A stretch of DNA of 15,188 nucleotides from Candidatus Methanomethylophilaceae archaeon. Its GTDB lineage: Archaea > Thermoplasmatota > Thermoplasmata > Methanomassiliicoccales > Methanomethylophilaceae. Below the pieces are notes generated by a model. It was not told the origin of the DNA and did no database searches. It saw only the letters and a list, made by a program, of their open reading frames with translations. The DNA is taken from assembly GCA_017455785.1 (NCBI GenBank), contig JAFSYZ010000048.1, positions 1-15,188 on the forward strand. Direction: 5' to 3'. Within the stretch, counting starts at the first letter, position 1. Each line of letters starts with the position of its first letter. Below are positions 4,820 through 15,188 of this stretch, in pieces. Made by a program: the position numbers and the translations under genes.

Positions 4820-5395
4820 ATGGGTACCAATCGTTCTGACCCCGGAGTATCAATCCTTGACCTAATGTGCAAGGATAAGCATTCTGACGCCCTTGAGCAC
4901 AAGCGTGCCAGGGATGAGTACAGCAGGGAGTCCAGACATTGGAGGGAGATGTGCACCAAGTACAATGAGATGTCCAAGGAGGCATCCGTAAAGGCCGCGG
5001 AAGCCAAGAAGGACCGTGACGTGTACAATGCGAAGATCCAGGAGCTCAAGGCCCAAAGGAATGAGGTACAGGCCAAGGCGGCCGAACTCAAAGAACAGGG
5101 CGGACCGGAGTACGATGCTCTGAAACAACAAGGTAACAAGCTCCACGAGGAAATGGTAGAATACACCAAGAAAGGACAGCTGGCACATTCCATCATGGTC
5201 CAGTCCTACGAGGATACGAACGTCTCAAGGAAGCTTGCGACCGCTGCTCATAAGAAGTCCATCGAATGCAGGAAGAAGGCCGATGCGGAACATGAGGCCT
5301 ATTTGAACTCACTGCAGTTCATCGAGGACATGAAGAAAGATCCTTTTAAGGATTCTAAGAAGGACAAAAAGGAAGATTCAAAGAAGGATGCGTGA
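4820..5395 (+). CDS. Archaeal coiled-coil protein (COG1340-like), unknown function
   Basis: A 191-residue, highly charged, almost wholly helical protein. From about residue 20 to 170 it shows continuous coiled-coil character in segments such as KDRDVYNAKIQELKAQRNEV. This resembles the archaeal coiled-coil group COG1340, some members of which are wrongly named phosphoserine phosphatase; no phosphatase motif is present here. The C-terminus is a lysine/aspartate repeat (KKDPFKDSKKDKKEDSKKDA). There is no signal peptide or membrane segment. I chose ATG 4820 because a TATA-like element lies about 27 bp upstream and no Shine-Dalgarno is visible, which fits a leaderless mRNA. Met16 is a later alternative. 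The last 18 bp overlap the end of the convergent UPF0280 gene. Function is unknown. Confidence 0.72.
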   Translation: MGTNRSDPGVSILDLMCKDKHSDALEHKRARDEYSRESRHWREMCTKYNEMSKEASVKAAEAKKDRDVYNAKIQELKAQRNEVQAKAAELKEQGGPEYDALKQQGNKLHEEMVEYTKKGQLAHSIMVQSYEDTNVSRKLATAAHKKSIECRKKADAEHEAYLNSLQFIEDMKKDPFKDSKKDKKEDSKKDA

Positions 5396-6094
5396 AGCAT
5401 TCTCAGCGTCGACCCTTCTCCTTACTAATTCTGGCACATCACCTTGCAGGCAGACCTTCCCGTCGACTGATGCGATACATCCTTCCACTCCCGGGATAGA
5501 ACATATCCTTTCCGATGCTGATGCGATATCATCACCGTTCTTTACCAGATTCCCGAAGGCAGTGGCACAACCGTCCGCCAAAAGGACATCCGAAGATATC
5601 ACAGTACATATGTCACTCATACCGAATGATACGGACGGACCTATCTTTCCGGATGACGAACAGATACCGAAAATACCATCCCTTGGTTGGACCTGCATGG
5701 CAATATCCTTCAGCCTGTCATCCCCCGTGAACAATCCCACTGTGACAGGTCTGTCGATCATCAATGCAATATCGCCCCCGTTCTCCACTATCGCAAATGC
5801 AGCACCTTCCTCTACCATCCTGGTGACGGCATGATTTGCCACCGCCCCTGCGACACAGGCCATAGGTCCCACATCCGCCAACAAGGAACATCTGCACATA
5901 TGACGGATAAGAGGATCATCAGCAAGATCCTCCTTATAAGGATAGAAGGTCGTGGCGAAGAATGGATCCTCCGCTATCTTACCATGAAGGATATCCCTGG
6001 CCTCGAATATTGCATCCTTCGCTACCCTGTGGTAGACATCATCGGCCACTATGGTGACCGCCGACTCCTCCACCTCGAAATGGATACGCTTCAT
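5378..6094 (-). CDS. UPF0280/COG2122 protein, sulfide-assimilation (homocysteine synthesis) factor
   Basis: A 238-residue protein with the UPF0280 hallmarks GPMACVAGA (76-84), ENGGD (104-108), GICSSSGKIG (143-152) and DGCATAFGN (174-182). The fold is related to the ApbE-type flavin transferases. The Methanosarcina acetivorans member MA1715 has been reported to make sulfide assimilation into homocysteine efficient; its chemistry is not settled. The start is the ATG at 6094. The frame stays open a further 45 codons upstream, but those codons overlap the ferredoxin gene and lack family similarity. This ATG overlaps the ferredoxin stop as ATGA, and no Shine-Dalgarno is visible, so translation is probably coupled. 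It is the last gene of the three-gene operon, and its 3' end overlaps the convergent coiled-coil gene by 18 bp. Confidence 0.88.
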   Translation of the reverse strand: MKRIHFEVEESAVTIVADDVYHRVAKDAIFEARDILHGKIAEDPFFATTFYPYKEDLADDPLIRHMCRCSLLADVGPMACVAGAVANHAVTRMVEEGAAFAIVENGGDIALMIDRPVTVGLFTGDDRLKDIAMQVQPRDGIFGICSSSGKIGPSVSFGMSDICTVISSDVLLADGCATAFGNLVKNGDDIASASERICSIPGVEGCIASVDGKVCLQGDVPELVRRRVDAENASRILL

Positions 6095-6495
6095 AGGGTC
6101 AGCTTGATCGCGTTGGTCGGGCATGCTGAGATGCATGCACCGCAGGCGACGCAGGTCTGTATCTTCAGTTCGACCTCGAAAGTTACGGGATCGTGATACA
6201 GGGACCTTGTCGGACACACCGATACGCATGAACCGCAGTCATAGCATTTCACATCGTCACGAAGAATGTGATCGCCAAGTTCCGTTGTCTCTATACCCTG
6301 CTCTGCGAAGAAGTCGATTGCCTCGTTGACCTTGGAATCCTCACCCTTCATCTTCAGGATCAGTATTCCGCCGCTGCCCTCGATCTCGGCACGCAGGATG
6401 CTGGGCTCGATGTTGAATCTGGATACCAAAGTATATGCGACCGAATCCTGTAGAGTCGCATCCGTGAACTTCATCTTGTACTTCTTATCAATCAT
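6091..6495 (-). CDS. NIL-domain ferredoxin, iron-sulfur subunit of L-aspartate semialdehyde sulfurtransferase
   Basis: A 134-residue protein with an N-terminal NIL domain (about 1-75) and a C-terminal two-[4Fe-4S] ferredoxin domain. The first cluster motif is C84-x2-C87-x2-C90-x3-C94 and the second C115-x2-C118-x2-C121-x3-C125, each followed by Pro. This is the architecture of MA1822 of Methanosarcina acetivorans, the partner of the DUF39 protein in making homocysteine from aspartate semialdehyde and sulfide; the clusters are thought to supply electrons. The ATG at 6495 follows the DUF39 stop by 4 bp, with its GGAG ribosome binding site (6506-6503) inside the end of the DUF39 gene. It overlaps the UPF0280 start by 4 bp. 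All eight cluster cysteines are intact. Confidence 0.92.
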   Translation of the reverse strand: MIDKKYKMKFTDATLQDSVAYTLVSRFNIEPSILRAEIEGSGGILILKMKGEDSKVNEAIDFFAEQGIETTELGDHILRDDVKCYDCGSCVSVCPTRSLYHDPVTFEVELKIQTCVACGACISACPTNAIKLTL

Positions 6496-6499
6496 GTTA

Positions 6500-7675
6500 T
6501 CACTCCTTCACAGCAAGTCCCTTTACGAATGACTTCTCCGGCAGTTTCTTCACGGGTTCTGTGAGCAGGAACTCACCCTTCTCGATCCAATCCTTCAATT
6601 TTCCTGCGACCTTCCTCGCACCCGCATATGACGATAATGAGGAAGTCCTGATCTTACGGCCCTCGTACTCTATGGTACCGGACCTCAGCTGAGCGTAATT
6701 GTACTGAGCAAGAACAGGTCTGCTCTTGGATGTCACACTGTAATCGATGAGATTGGCATAGATGTCCTCATCGGATATCGATGCCCTCTTAACGACATCC
6801 ACATTCAAGACAGGGATCGGGATTCCGACTCCTAAGGCGATGGATGTACCGTAACCGTGAACGTTCAATCCTCTGACGAAGTCCTTGTCCATCTGTTTCA
6901 GATCACCAATGAGGGCGAGTGTCCTAGCTCCTGAGATCGGAACACCGTTCTTCTCTGCGACTTGGGTATTGAACTGCGTCCCCTGCCATGTGACGTAACC
7001 CTCTCCACCTCCGAGGAAGATGTGTGTTCCCATTCCGATGGTATCTAGATGCGGGTCGTTCATCAAGGGCGACAGCTGTCCTGCCGAACTGAAGGTGGCG
7101 TTCTTCATCCTGGGCAGGAGTTTTCCCATGTAGGTGTACAACGTCCTGTCCGAACAGTTCGTTGCCACATTGTAGTTCTGATATACGTTACGGGGATTGT
7201 ACATGTACGCTTCATTGAGGTCATCGAGTGTGATGTAGGTGTTGATGTCCTTCCTCACGTAGCAATCGGTACCCGGGCCCCAGGCGTGGAGGTGGATCTT
7301 CTTGCCTGCGATAAGGTCCTCGATGACGTGTCCTCCGCCGTATCCGTCAGGATCGTCGGATTTGGATGTCGATGCTATGTAAGTATCGACTGCGGCGAGA
7401 CCTCCGTATGCCTCGACATCATTGAGCCTGATATTGGCCATCCTGATGGGCGGGTCCGAATGTCCGAAATTGAGGAATGCTCCGGATGAACACATCGCAC
7501 CGAATGTACCGGTGGTTATGACATCCACTTCCTCGGCTACCTGCTCGGCACCCTTCTCCTTGACGAGATCTATGATCTCCTCCGCTGTATAGACCACTGC
7601 TTTGCCCTTGGATATCTTCTCGTTGATCTCCTCGTAAGTCTTCGCCACTATATCCCTCGATTCGGAATACCCCAT
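6500..7675 (-). CDS. DUF39/COG1900 protein, L-aspartate semialdehyde sulfurtransferase (homocysteine-forming)
   Basis: A 391-residue DUF39 protein. The Methanosarcina acetivorans member MA1821, with its NIL ferredoxin, forms homocysteine from aspartate semialdehyde and sulfide without O-acyl homoserine intermediates, probably through an enzyme persulfide. Features here are GTFGAMCSSGAFLNFGHSD (56-74, with Cys62), GYGGGHVIEDL (111-121), and HAWGPGTDCYV (130-140). Cys138 in the last motif is the likely counterpart of the essential family cysteine. Another conserved-looking stretch is NYNVATNCSDRTLY. The C-terminal CBS pair of longer homologues is absent. I prefer ATG 7675 over the in-frame GTG at 7690: GGAGTG lies 12 nt before the ATG and itself contains the GTG, and the TATA box predicts a start near 7700. 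It is the first gene of the operon. Confidence 0.9.
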   Translation of the reverse strand: MGYSESRDIVAKTYEEINEKISKGKAVVYTAEEIIDLVKEKGAEQVAEEVDVITTGTFGAMCSSGAFLNFGHSDPPIRMANIRLNDVEAYGGLAAVDTYIASTSKSDDPDGYGGGHVIEDLIAGKKIHLHAWGPGTDCYVRKDINTYITLDDLNEAYMYNPRNVYQNYNVATNCSDRTLYTYMGKLLPRMKNATFSSAGQLSPLMNDPHLDTIGMGTHIFLGGGEGYVTWQGTQFNTQVAEKNGVPISGARTLALIGDLKQMDKDFVRGLNVHGYGTSIALGVGIPIPVLNVDVVKRASISDEDIYANLIDYSVTSKSRPVLAQYNYAQLRSGTIEYEGRKIRTSSLSSYAGARKVAGKLKDWIEKGEFLLTEPVKKLPEKSFVKGLAVKE

Positions 7676-7698
7676 CTGACTGGTCGGCACTCCGTTTC

Positions 7699-10974: not shown

Positions 10975-11001
10975 TGTACATATGATGTACATTTATGTAC
11001 A
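10975..11001 (+). promoter_or_regulatory. Three phased TGTACA boxes over the core promoter of the TrpY-like gene
   Basis: Perfect TGTACA hexamers start at 10975, 10986 and 10996, spaced 11 and 10 bp, so all lie on one helix face. Boxes 2 and 3 flank or overlap an ATTTATGT TATA-like element (10991-10998) centred about 26 bp before ATG 11021. TGTACA is the reported TRP-box sequence bound by TrpY in Methanothermobacter thermautotrophicus. This layout suggests autorepression by covering the TATA box. Confidence 0.65.
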
Positions 11002-11020
11002 TGAAAGTATATTACCATCC

Positions 11021-11518
11021 ATGCAGAACATACTTGATCTTTTCGAAGGAATGCACTCACAAAGGTCTGTTGCGAAAACGATGCTTCGTTACGGTCTCAG
11101 AGTAGAAGGTGAGGATGTCTACTGTGGTAAGATCAAGATTGCTGACGCATCACTTGCCAGGGCGGCAGGTGTCGACAGAAGGGTGGTCAGATCCACTGTC
11201 GAGAGCATCAATGCCGACCCGAGACTCAAAGACATATTCTCAAAAATGAACTCCACATCATTGCTCTCGGATGTGGCCCCTGTCATCGGTTGTTCGGTGG
11301 TGGAGATCATACCTACCAACGCCGGACAGCCCGGGATCCTGGCAGATATAACACAAGCGATCTACAATGCCGGTGTCTCGTTGAAACAGGTGGTCGTCGA
11401 CGATTTCGCCTTCGATGACGGGCCCAGGCTAATAATAGTGCTGGATGGACAGCTCCCGGCGGAGTACATACCCCGCCTGAGAGCATGTCAAGGTGTCGCC
11501 TCTGTCATCTTGAGATGA
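11021..11518 (+). CDS. TrpY-like transcriptional regulator, HTH plus ACT domain (COG2150)
   Basis: A 165-residue predicted amino-acid-responsive regulator. A helix-turn-helix lies at about 38-62 (KIADASLARAAGVDRRVVRS) and an ACT-like domain at about 94-165, beginning VEIIPTNAGQPGILADITQA, with the usual ligand-loop glycines and aspartate. The layout matches the archaeal 'regulator of amino acid metabolism' group, to which TrpY of Methanothermobacter, a tryptophan-sensing repressor, belongs to my knowledge. I chose ATG 11021: the earlier in-frame ATGs at 10982 and 10985 would translate through the TGTACA boxes and the TATA-like element, and the residues they add do not look like the family. 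With TATA about 26 bp upstream and no Shine-Dalgarno, the mRNA is probably leaderless. The gene is not beside trp genes here and abuts carB tail to tail with no gap. The effector amino acid is unknown. Confidence 0.82.
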   Translation: MQNILDLFEGMHSQRSVAKTMLRYGLRVEGEDVYCGKIKIADASLARAAGVDRRVVRSTVESINADPRLKDIFSKMNSTSLLSDVAPVIGCSVVEIIPTNAGQPGILADITQAIYNAGVSLKQVVVDDFAFDDGPRLIIVLDGQLPAEYIPRLRACQGVASVILR

Positions 11519-14500
11519 TCATTCCACAAGGTTGTGGTATTCCCTCATGGAGCGGACGCCCACGTCCTTCTCCTTAGCTACACGGATAGCCATTACAGCG
11601 GCGTTGGCACCGTTGATAGTGGTGTAGATCGGGATCTCCAATTCCACTGCCAGACGGCGGATCGCATGTCCGTCCCTGATGGGGCCCGACCTCTGTGTGG
11701 GGGTGTTGATGATCATGTTGATCTTCCCTGCCCTCATCAGTTCCATGACTGTCATTCCGCTCTGGTTATCCGATACCCTGAAGGCCGTTTCGCATTCTAT
11801 ACCATGACTTCTGAGGACCGATGCGGTACCCTTGGTCGAGTAGATATGGAAGCCCATCTCCTGGAGCTTCTCCGCACTGTCCACGATCTCCTCCTTATCA
11901 GAGTCTGCGACTGTGATGAACACACCGCCCTCGGTCGGGATCTTGTCTCCGCATGCCTTGAATGCCTTGTAGCAAGCGACATCGAAATCCTCATCGATAC
12001 CCATGACCTCACCTGTGGATTTCATCTCCGGTGTGAGGATGGAATCGATTCCCTCGAGCTTCAGGAACGGGAAGACGGATTCTTTGATAGCATAGTGATC
12101 TATGATCCTGTACTCATCCTTGATGCCCAGTTCCTTGAGGGTCTTACCGAGCATGATCTGTGTTCCGAGCTTGGCAAGCGGGACACCGGTGGCCTTCGAG
12201 ATGAATGGTACCGTACGTGACGCCCTCGGGTTCGCCTCGATCATGTAGATCTCGTAACCCTTTGCTGCGAGCTGAAGGTTCAGGCATCCCTTGATGTTCA
12301 ATGCCAATGCCACCTTCTTGGAGATGTCCAGGACCTTGTCGATGTATATCTTACCGAGTGTGCACGGCGGAAGTACCATCGTAGCATCACCTGAGTGCAC
12401 TCCCGCGTACTCCACGTGTTCCATAATGCCTCCGATGTAAACATCGGTACCATCTGAGATGACATCCACATCTATCTCCACCGCATTGGTGAGATACTTG
12501 TCGATTAGTATGGGATGATTCCTTGATACCTTCACGGCTGTCTCTACATATGTCTGCAGCTCGTTGGTGGAGTAGACTATCTCCATACCGCGTCCTCCGA
12601 GGACGTATGACGGCCTCACAAGTACCGGATAGCCGATGGATTCGGCAATGTCCCTGGCTTCCTCGAACGAGTAACCTGTTCCGGACTTGGGCTGTTTGAT
12701 GCCCAATTCGTCCATAAGCTTGGAGAACCTCCTCCTGTCCTCTGCGATATCCATCGAGTCCGGAGTGGTTCCGAGGACCTTGGTCTTCGTTCCCTTCAGC
12801 GCCTTCTCCAGATCAACAGCAAGGTTGACACTGGTCTGTCCGCCGAACTGGACGATCACACCGTCCGCATCCTCCTTCTCGATGACATTCAGAACATCTT
12901 CTAAGGTAAGGGGTTCGAAATACAGCCTATCGGAAATATCGAAATCTGTAGAAACGGTCTCGGGGTTGTTGTTGATGATGACCGCATCCACGCCGGCCTC
13001 CTGAAGAGCCATGACGCTGTGAACACAGCAGTAATCGAACTCGATACCCTGTCCGATACGGATGGGCCCTCCACCGACGATTATGACACGCTTCCTGTCC
13101 TTGTCGTACTGTACCTCGCAGGAATCGCCGTATGTTGAATAGAAATACGGTGTCTTGGCAGGGAACTCCGCTGCGCATGTGTCCACCATCTTGTAGACAG
13201 GGACGATTCCATTCTCCTTCCTCATGGCACGGATATCCATCTCGTCCTTCCCTGTGAAGGATGATATGGTGACATCGGCGAATCCCATGGATTTGGCCTC
13301 CTTGAGCAGTTCCACCGTCAGAGACTCGTTCTTCAGCCTGTTCTCCATATCTATGATGTTCTTCACTTTCAATATGAAGAACTCGTCCCATTTGGCGAGA
13401 TCCGCGACCTTCTTAGTGTCCCATCCTCTCCTGAGGGCCTCCGCTATTTCGAAGAGACGCCTGTCGGTGGCATGGATGAGACCTTCCGTAAGCTCTTCAT
13501 CGGTCTCGTTGAGCGTATCGAAGTAGATGGATCCGATCTCCAGTGATTTCACACCTTTCAGAAGTGCCTCCTCGAAGGTCCTTCCTATGGCCATCGTCTC
13601 ACCGGTGGACTTCATCTGGGTTCCGAGACGCCTGTCCACCGTACGGAACTTGTCGAAGGGCCACCTAGGTACCTTCAATACGACGTAATCCACGGTGGGT
13701 TCGAAGCATGCGTATGTGTTACCTGTGACCCTGTTAGGTATCTCGTCCAATGTGTGTCCCAATGCCACTTTGGCGGAGACACGTGCGATCGGATAACCTG
13801 TGGCTTTTGATGCCAATGCGGATGACCTTGATACACGGGGGTTGACCTCAATCAACCTGTAATCGCCGTTGGCAGGGTTGAATGCGAACTGAACGTTACA
13901 TCCTCCTTCTATACCAAGAGCACGGATGACCTTCAATGATGCTGTCTTGAGACGTACGTGGTCCGCCGCAGACATGGTCAGACACGGTGCACAGACTATA
14001 CTCTCTCCGGTGTGGATTCCCATGGCGTCGATGTTCTCCATGTTACAGACGACTATGGCGTTGTCCTTGGAATCCCTCATCACCTCATATTCTATCTCCT
14101 TCCATCCAAGAACTGATTCCTCGATCAGGACCTGATGGATACGTGAATAGGCGAGACCTCTGCCGCAGACATCCTTGAGCTCCTCCTCGTTGTAGGCGAT
14201 ACCTCCGCCGGTACCTCCCAGTGTGTATGCAGGACGGATGAGGACAGGGTAATGACCTATGTACTCCACAGCTTTCAATGCCTCTTCGTAGGAGTTGACA
14301 CTCATACTCTTGGGAACGGGTTCGCCGATCTCCTCCATGGTCTCCTTGAACAGTTCACGGTCCTCGGATTTCGCTATCGCTTCGGGCTGTGTACCGAGGA
14401 GGTCGACGCCGTACTTGTCCAGAACGCCTTTCTCTGCAAGTTCCGAACAGATGTTCAATGCGGTCTGTCCTCCCATTCCAGCCAATATACCATCCACGCC

Positions 14501-14737
14501 TTCCTTGGCGATGATCTTCTCGATGATGTCCGCCTGCAGCGGTTCGATGTAGACGCTCTCAGCCATATCCACATCCGTCTGGATGGTGGCGGGATTGCTG
14601 TTCACCAACACCGTGGTGTAGCCCTCCTCTCTGACCGACTTACAGGCCTGTGAACCGGAGAAATCGAACTCGGCCGCCTGACCTATGACGATAGGTCCTG
14701 AACCTATAACCATGAGCTTCTTGTAATCCTTGGTCAC
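11519..14737 (-). CDS. carB: Carbamoyl-phosphate synthase, large (ammonia-using) subunit
   Basis: A 1072-residue full-length cytoplasmic enzyme that makes carbamoyl phosphate from bicarbonate, ammonia and two ATP, for arginine and pyrimidine synthesis. The two homologous synthetase halves are both intact. The first has GSGPIVIGQ (12-20), MGGQTALN (88-95), an ATP-grasp with RPAYTLGGTGGG, and EVNPRVSRSSALASKATG (297-314). The second has GGGPIRIGQGIEFDYCC (555-571), FGGQTSVN, RPSYVLGGRGMEIVY, and EANPRASRTVPFISKATG (834-851). The oligomerisation region lies between (about 400-550), and the C-terminal MGS-type allosteric domain spans about 937-1072. The start is GTG 14737, which overlaps the carA stop as GTGA and has AGGAGG at 7 nt. 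With an apparently glutaminase-dead CarA, the large subunit would have to take free ammonia. Confidence 0.97.
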   Translation of the reverse strand: MTKDYKKLMVIGSGPIVIGQAAEFDFSGSQACKSVREEGYTTVLVNSNPATIQTDVDMAESVYIEPLQADIIEKIIAKEGVDGILAGMGGQTALNICSELAEKGVLDKYGVDLLGTQPEAIAKSEDRELFKETMEEIGEPVPKSMSVNSYEEALKAVEYIGHYPVLIRPAYTLGGTGGGIAYNEEELKDVCGRGLAYSRIHQVLIEESVLGWKEIEYEVMRDSKDNAIVVCNMENIDAMGIHTGESIVCAPCLTMSAADHVRLKTASLKVIRALGIEGGCNVQFAFNPANGDYRLIEVNPRVSRSSALASKATGYPIARVSAKVALGHTLDEIPNRVTGNTYACFEPTVDYVVLKVPRWPFDKFRTVDRRLGTQMKSTGETMAIGRTFEEALLKGVKSLEIGSIYFDTLNETDEELTEGLIHATDRRLFEIAEALRRGWDTKKVADLAKWDEFFILKVKNIIDMENRLKNESLTVELLKEAKSMGFADVTISSFTGKDEMDIRAMRKENGIVPVYKMVDTCAAEFPAKTPYFYSTYGDSCEVQYDKDRKRVIIVGGGPIRIGQGIEFDYCCVHSVMALQEAGVDAVIINNNPETVSTDFDISDRLYFEPLTLEDVLNVIEKEDADGVIVQFGGQTSVNLAVDLEKALKGTKTKVLGTTPDSMDIAEDRRRFSKLMDELGIKQPKSGTGYSFEEARDIAESIGYPVLVRPSYVLGGRGMEIVYSTNELQTYVETAVKVSRNHPILIDKYLTNAVEIDVDVISDGTDVYIGGIMEHVEYAGVHSGDATMVLPPCTLGKIYIDKVLDISKKVALALNIKGCLNLQLAAKGYEIYMIEANPRASRTVPFISKATGVPLAKLGTQIMLGKTLKELGIKDEYRIIDHYAIKESVFPFLKLEGIDSILTPEMKSTGEVMGIDEDFDVACYKAFKACGDKIPTEGGVFITVADSDKEEIVDSAEKLQEMGFHIYSTKGTASVLRSHGIECETAFRVSDNQSGMTVMELMRAGKINMIINTPTQRSGPIRDGHAIRRLAVELEIPIYTTINGANAAVMAIRVAKEKDVGVRSMREYHNLVE

Positions 14738-15188
14738 TGTACCGCCTCCTTCATCATGGCCTCGAATGAATCGGTGATGAATGATGTGTCCGAGGATCCT
14801 TCGGTGACCTCGGGATAATATGATGACATGACGATCGGCAACTCCTTGTGCTTCAATCCCTCGACGCTCTTGTCGTTGAGGTTGATCTGATCTATTATGA
14901 AACCTGCCGCTTCGGCCGAAGGTGCATCGATGGCGAAACCGCGGTTCTGTGCGGTTATCAGCACCCTGTTCTCATGCCTGACGGACTGTCCACCTCTGTG
15001 ACCGAACTTCATCTTTTCCACTTTAACTCCCATCGCCACGGACACGACCCCTCCGCCGTATCCGATACCGAGGATCGGCAGCTTGCCTTTCAACGCCTTG
15101 ATGGTCTCCACGGCGCATGATTTATTGGGATTACCTGGTCCGTCGGAAACGATGACGCCCTTGACACCGCTCTTGAGGATTGTGTCTG
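14734..15188 (-). CDS. carA: Carbamoyl-phosphate synthase small subunit, C-terminal part, glutaminase residues missing
   Basis: The frame is open to the window edge, giving about 150 C-terminal residues of the class I glutamine amidotransferase domain. SDGPGNP matches the family's SNGPGDP, and FGHRGGQSV, TAQNRGFAID and VEGLKHKELP align clearly. Where active enzymes read GICLGHQ, this protein has GIGYGGG, so the cysteine nucleophile is Gly and the following His-Gln are Gly-Gly. Where they read Q-G/F-HPEA, it has SSYYPEV, so the catalytic His is Tyr; only the triad Glu remains. The QNHGFA histidine is Arg. The frame is otherwise undamaged with normal CarA ends, so it is a substituted protein and not a decayed one. 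An internal GTG (15111) is not a start, since conserved sequence continues upstream of it. It is co-translated with carB. Confidence 0.93.
   Translation of the reverse strand, partial: DTILKSGVKGVIVSDGPGNPNKSCAVETIKALKGKLPILGIGYGGGVVSVAMGVKVEKMKFGHRGGQSVRHENRVLITAQNRGFAIDAPSAEAAGFIIDQINLNDKSVEGLKHKELPIVMSSYYPEVTEGSSDTSFITDSFEAMMKEAVQ
14745..14750 (-). promoter_or_regulatory. Ribosome binding site of carB inside carA
   Basis: The minus strand reads AGGAGG, then 7 nt (CGGTACA), then the GTG start of carB. This strong site inside the end of carA fixes the GTG start and supports coupled translation of the two subunits. Confidence 0.75.

Follow-up and report, generated by a model that had tools for sequence, protein, structure and literature searches.

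Carbamoyl-phosphate synthase (CPS) uses glutamine in all its types except CPS1, according to the CPS1 structure paper (PMC4655335). The same paper describes human CPS1 as having a glutaminase-like domain without the cysteine (Ser294), as taking external ammonia and as offering a possible bypass to the same gate. A eukaryotic 'urea' clade of CPSs (stramenopiles, haptophytes, chlorarachniophytes and metazoans) is called ammonia-dependent in a second paper (PMC7542463), and Escherichia coli CarB alone is reported to make carbamoyl phosphate from NH3 in vivo. Single-domain NadE, an ammonia-dependent NAD synthetase, belongs to a glutamine amidotransferase family in which prokaryotes use free ammonia in vivo, and no carAB without a glutaminase component was counted, by gene arrangement, among 600 genomes (PMC3376133 and its Table 1). 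Here we describe CarA2 and CarB2, the small and large CPS subunits encoded at one end of a 15,188-nucleotide stretch of archaeal DNA (the window), which is the entire contig C153 of a draft genome, G000, of a Candidatus Methanomethylophilaceae archaeon, a relative of gut methanogens (1.76 Mb, 303 contigs, 84.87% complete). From sequence comparison we consider it likely, with a probability of roughly three in four (0.74), that CarA2–CarB2 is a CPS without glutamine hydrolysis, which takes free ammonia and keeps CarA2 as a structural partner.

Like vertebrate CPS1, CarA2 has a glutaminase-like domain without its nucleophile, and the pair is best read as convergent with CPS1. The two differ in that CPS1 is one fused chain of 1500 residues that depends on N-acetylglutamate, whereas carA2 and carB2 encode separate subunits and have a separate, archaeal origin. 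The 'urea' CPSs form a single eukaryotic clade, whereas CarAs without the catalytic cysteine (hereafter Cys-less) appear to reflect repeated losses in archaea; in NadE the glutaminase domain is wholly absent, whereas CarA2 retains it without the nucleophile. The E. coli small-subunit mutants C269S (1c30) and G359F (1m6v) have this fold too, one lacking the nucleophile and the other altered elsewhere, but these are engineered single mutants and the changes in CarA2 are natural and multiple. No report of a Cys-less CarA in prokaryotes was found in searches of the open-licence PMC literature.

Loss of the catalytic residues in CarA2

Alignment to E. coli CarA bears out a preliminary description of this DNA, in which Cys269, His353 and His312 were said to be replaced by Gly, Tyr and Arg in a maintained frame that is coupled through GTGA to an intact CarB (Table 1). 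Residues 266–274, FGICLGHQL in E. coli, read LGIGYGGGV in CarA2 (Cys269, His272 and Gln273 are all Gly); QNHGFA (310–315) reads QNRGFA (His312 to Arg), and GHPEA (352–356) reads YYPEV (His353 to Tyr, with Glu355 retained). In addition, Ser47 is replaced by Ala, and GPG at 241–243 is retained. The catalytic Cys-His-Glu triad is therefore reduced to Glu355, and the loss of Cys269 and His353 closes the known mechanism to CarA2. The change of GICLGHQ to GIGYGGG is as first described, except that its His272 part is no loss peculiar to CarA2, because the group does not conserve this position (58% of the 101 rows with the cysteine have Asn). After YYPEV, TEGSS replaces SPGPH of E. coli; among the residues lost here (Pro358, Pro360 and His361), Pro360 alone is near-invariant (98% of rows with the cysteine).

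The first 246 amino acids of carA2 lie at the end of another contig, C25. The ends of C25 and C153 share an exact 141-bp overlap, which falls inside carA2 at the altered motif and probably marks where the assembly graph branches into different strains; joining the two contigs gives a 350-amino-acid frame without stops. A contig break at this very place might suggest an assembly or sequencing artefact, an explanation that is already refuted. The nine sequences of protein cluster P0001, on four contigs (the longest of 18,497 bases), are letter-identical to the joined product and uninterrupted. Clusters P0002–P0004, at 77, 71 and 68% identity and 349–350 amino acids, carry the same losses (GIGYGGC, GIGLGGC and GIGFGGC, all with QNRG and YYPEV), and the same kind of loss occurs in one-contig genomes. 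The altered state is thus real and old, and the sequencing error that the preliminary description had allowed for, with Cys and His codons to be restored, is excluded, as is chance.

The joined CarA2 exceeds the cut-offs of PF00988 (CPSase_sm_chain) and PF00117 (class-I glutamine amidotransferase, GATase) along its whole length and, at 286.7 bits against NF009475 (cut-off 221), is a CarA by descent with the predicted CarA fold retained. The equivalog cut-off of TIGR01368 (307.35 bits) is missed by P0001 (292.4) and P0002 (287.6). Six Cys-less CarAs from other lineages exceed it, so this model is blind to the triad.

Repeated loss of Cys269 in the family

The family search covered 102 genomes of the Methanomethylophilaceae and gave a protein match in 95; that of the order took in 147 genomes, of which 45 lie outside the family (38 with a PF00988 match, 37 fetched, 36 full-length). 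Together they gave 131 full-length CarAs, 95 from the family and 36 from other families of the order. The C25 half of carA2 entered this set rejoined; nine pieces were omitted as too short (two each from G010 and G036, one each from G003, G026, G046 and G128, and the C25 half as such), as were the unfetched or fragmentary G022, G129 and second G029 fragment on C96.

All 36 CarAs from the other families retain Cys269, as do 65 of the 95 from the Methanomethylophilaceae; in the other 30 this position holds Gly (15), Ala (10) or Ser (5). A loss confined to G000 is ruled out by these Cys-less CarAs in other family genomes. The fewest changes on a tree built without the catalytic columns is nine, as it is on a carefully built tree from which the two longest branches (those of the window and G001) were left out, and six changes remain after the most favourable collapse of branches under 95/95 support. 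By this reconstruction, the cysteine has been lost separately at least six to nine times in the family. A single loss followed by descent was considered, and forcing the Cys-less rows together was rejected, a result to be taken with caution given the long branches involved. Of the 30 Cys-less rows, 20 have also lost His353; three further family rows keep the cysteine and have lost His353, which indicates decay via another first step. In one clade, g9, all 35 cluster representatives are Cys-less (25 Ala, 8 Ser, 2 Gly) and Asp or Glu is fixed at 273. The carA of one single-contig genome (L054 in G010) consists of two open pieces split by one TAG, a codon that this order uses for pyrrolysine.

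Genomes with a Cys-less CarA only

A full-length CarA is available from 87 family genomes: 58 contain the form with the cysteine only, six contain both (G000, G013, G021, G023, G062 and G064) and 23 contain the Cys-less form only. Completeness is 90% or more in 11 of these 23; G049 and G054 each consist of one contig, on which PF00988 matches once. Carbamoyltransferases and carbamate kinase were searched for in 16 genomes, including 11 of the 23. A carbamoyltransferase is present in all 16, and 10 of the 11 have two. NCBIfam typing covered four genomes: the single carbamoyltransferase of G000, G005 and G006 is of the aspartate type, and G004 has one each of the aspartate and ornithine types. 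This last genome, of the same genus and 96% complete, gave no CarA or CarB match. Carbamate kinase was found in none of the 16 genomes at the cut-off of 358, a demanding threshold attained by 2 of 14 control genomes; 13 of the 16 have weak partial matches of at most 33 bits. Given these carbamoyltransferases, sole-copy cells seem to require carbamoyl phosphate; no carbamate kinase having reached the cut-off, the one supplier seen in them is a CarAB that lacks the glutaminase nucleophile. An ammonia-dependent CarAB in these sole-copy members is the natural conclusion. The preliminary proposal of an ammonia-dependent CPS thus fits such relatives better and is not supported as stated for G000, which owns an intact CarAB as well.

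An additional, intact CarAB in G000

An intact carA pairing with this CarB had been named as evidence that would overturn the proposal. G000 does hold an intact carA, carA1, on contig C289 (GICLGNQ, QNHGFA and QYHPEA), but it is followed by its own carB, so that half of the objection applies. The gene order on C289 is pyrG, divergent, before carA1 and then carB. C289 resembles the window in GC content (0.512 versus 0.510), and its tetranucleotide difference is the smallest among 17 stretches compared with the window; contamination of the bin is disfavoured by this match, with a near relative of equal composition still conceivable. CarA1 groups with CarAs of G016, G062 and G064, from two other genera (SH-aLRT 100). 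The CarA of this group adjoins the sole pyrG found in G062 (contig C4) and G064 (C11) too, so that in all three genomes the only CTP synthase found adjoins an intact carAB. A PF06418 (CTP synthase) search gave no match in G004, G005, G006 and G016, an odd absence for an enzyme usually held essential. The pyrG–carAB block looks acquired, and CarAB2 is one of two CPSs in G000, of which CarAB1 looks glutamine-dependent. With CarAB1 intact, the G000 cell is not forced onto ammonia for carbamoyl phosphate. In G013 (L077) and G021 (L105), carAB–carAB stand in tandem, one with and one without the catalytic cysteine; judged by their residues, these are a natural isoenzyme pair.

Selection on CarA and CarB, and other amidotransferases

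The Cys-less CarAs of relatives are under purifying selection, as judged from the ratio of nonsynonymous to synonymous substitution rates (dN/dS) between pairs of relatives' genes; dS exceeds 1 in several pairs, which makes the ratios rough. The glutaminase pocket is decaying in these CarAs, its columns being among the most changed. The branch of CarA2 is 1.11 (about 1.1 replacements per site) and the end branch of CarB2 0.26, with 86% identity to the CarB of G092 over 327 columns compared. The catalytic sites of CarB2 are kept, and the catalytic and gate residues of CarB are unchanged. The median root-to-tip distance of CarB is 0.80 beside a Cys-less partner (27 sequences) against 0.64 (62 sequences; p 0.054), and faster CarB evolution beside a Cys-less CarA is not clear.

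A general loss of glutamine use is disfavoured by the other PF00117 matches of G000, G049, G054 and G063. All 13 of these non-CarA matches keep the cysteine (GVCAG, GICAG, GICIG, GVCIG, GVCNG, GVCLG or GICGG), four of them being weak or under the family cut-off (L009 and, in part, L246–L249) and read by motif only. The loss of the cysteine is therefore specific to CarA in those genomes. PF00117 matched carA alone in G024, which for this reason provides no control.

Proposed mechanism and alternatives

The simplest way for a CPS with an intact CarB but no nucleophile in CarA to work is by the established chemistry of CarB, supplied with free ammonia. CarB2 would make carboxyphosphate, ammonia entering from outside would react with it to give carbamate, and CarB2 would phosphorylate the carbamate. 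CarA2 would be a folded structural, perhaps regulatory, partner that stabilises or regulates CarB2. We infer the absence of glutamine activity by any route, together with the function of CarA2, ammonia as the donor and the way it gets in. Several observations weigh against this reading. The pocket is not wholly gone, as Lys202, Asn311, Gly313 and Glu355 are still as in E. coli. CarA2 is short of one residue in the TGYQ motif (a gap common to P0002–P0004), in which Gly38 is retained even in at least 90% of Cys-less rows; this gap and the long branch hint at looser constraint. The dN/dS values concern the carA genes of relatives and not carA2 itself, and the highest of all pairs (0.27) is that of the Cys-less copies of G062 and G064, which also own an intact one. 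The faster rate of the GATase domain rests on non-independent tips. Finally, the intact CarAB1 could lend its CarA1 to CarB2 or make CarAB2 dispensable.

The last of these points leads to the alternative that carAB2 in G000 is redundant and on its way out, with carAB1 covering all needs and carA2 losing function. The matching composition of the two contigs, the branch length of CarA2 and the raised dN/dS in the comparable two-copy genomes all agree with it. Yet carA2 has stayed full-length through so many replacements, P0002–P0004 hold their length together with Arg312 and Tyr353, and CarB2 is conserved with its catalytic residues; we regard redundancy as unlikely. It is more doubtful still that CarB2 receives glutamine-derived ammonia in trans, from CarA1 or another glutaminase docked on it, with CarA2 as a spacer or regulator. 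The unchanged gate of CarB and the presence of CarA1 would suit such an arrangement, but relatives in which a Cys-less CarA is the sole one found have no CarA to borrow, CarA2, still encoded in the operon, would itself fill the docking site, and the other class-I amidotransferases of G049, G054 and G063 look, by motifs and lengths, like enzymes of other pathways. A site rebuilt or reused, whether with another nucleophile, for another amide donor or as a ligand-sensing pocket, is at least as improbable. Residues newly fixed in some clades, such as Asp or Glu at 273 in g9 and Arg312 and Tyr353 in P0001–P0004, would fit reuse, whereas position 269 is Gly or Ala, neither of them nucleophilic, in 25 of 30 family rows, His353 has gone from two-thirds of them (20 of 30) and the pocket columns are among those changing most.

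Cys-less CarAs in bacteria

A scan of named genomes with the joined carA2 protein found no relative. The same scan with an alignment of Cys-less sequences (A1) gave 79 loci, of which 23 are Cys-less (8 archaeal and 15 bacterial); as its patterns were drawn from Cys-less sequences, this proportion is no frequency. The bacterial ones belong to Acetivibrio straminisolvens, A. mesophilus and metagenome-assembled genomes of Clostridia or Oscillospiraceae, and 9 of the 15 record titles name the rectum or cecum of sheep, goat, yak or deer. In eight bacterial genomes checked, an intact CarA accompanies the Cys-less one in four (both Acetivibrio, G153 and G154) and the Cys-less CarA stands alone in four (G151, G152, G155 and G156, for which genome completeness is not given).

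We lean, with less assurance than for CarA2–CarB2 itself, towards a wider reading in which ammonia-specific CPSs have arisen on many occasions in prokaryotes through inactivation of the CarA glutaminase, which is kept as a structural or regulatory partner. This would have happened in Methanomethylophilaceae-type archaea and separately in gut Clostridia and Acetivibrio, with some lineages running a glutamine-fed and an ammonia-fed CPS together, via tandem duplication (G013 and G021) or a carAB acquired from relatives (G000, G062 and G064). If true, the archaeal family and some bacteria repeat in nature the evolution that produced CPS1, and one can ask in them what purpose a dead glutaminase domain serves, by which route ammonia enters CarB and whether the change is driven by ammonia-rich habitats. 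Automatic annotation calls the Cys-less P0057, P0065, P0069, P0071 and P0128 glutamine-hydrolysing, and nitrogen models built on such annotation may be wrong.

The carA2 locus and neighbouring genes

Table 1 Features of the window, with the bacterial Cys-less loci of the named-genome scan
Feature	Position	Strand	Remarks
carA2, 3′ part, Cys-less CarA	14734..15188	-	150 of 350 aa, read over 14734..15186, open at contig end; rest on contig C25
GIGYGGG replacing GICLGHQ	15049..15069	-	codon at Cys269 (15061..15063) is Gly
QNRGFA replacing QNHGFA	14932..14949	-	His312 to Arg; alignment to E. coli CarA
SSYYPEV	14806..14826	-	His353 to Tyr, Glu355 kept; alignment to E. coli CarA
GTGA	14734..14737		carA2 stop overlapping carB2 GTG start
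carB2, intact large subunit	11519..14737	-	1072 aa; TIGR01369 1495.5 bits, cut-off 1027
TrpY-like regulator	10982..11518	+	165.1 bits, under cut-off 180
Relative of methanogenesis marker 16	6500..7690	-	146.8 bits, under cut-off 363.95
4Fe-4S protein	6091..6495	-
PRK04334-type protein	5378..6229	-
Bacterial Cys-less loci			L188, L191-L193, L195, L196, L201, L206, L212, L216, L221, L223, L226, L231, L234

Elsewhere in the window, the TrpY-like regulator gene faces the end of carB2. The relative of methanogenesis marker 16 has the 4Fe-4S protein as its neighbour, and the PRK04334-type protein is the third of these three adjacent genes.
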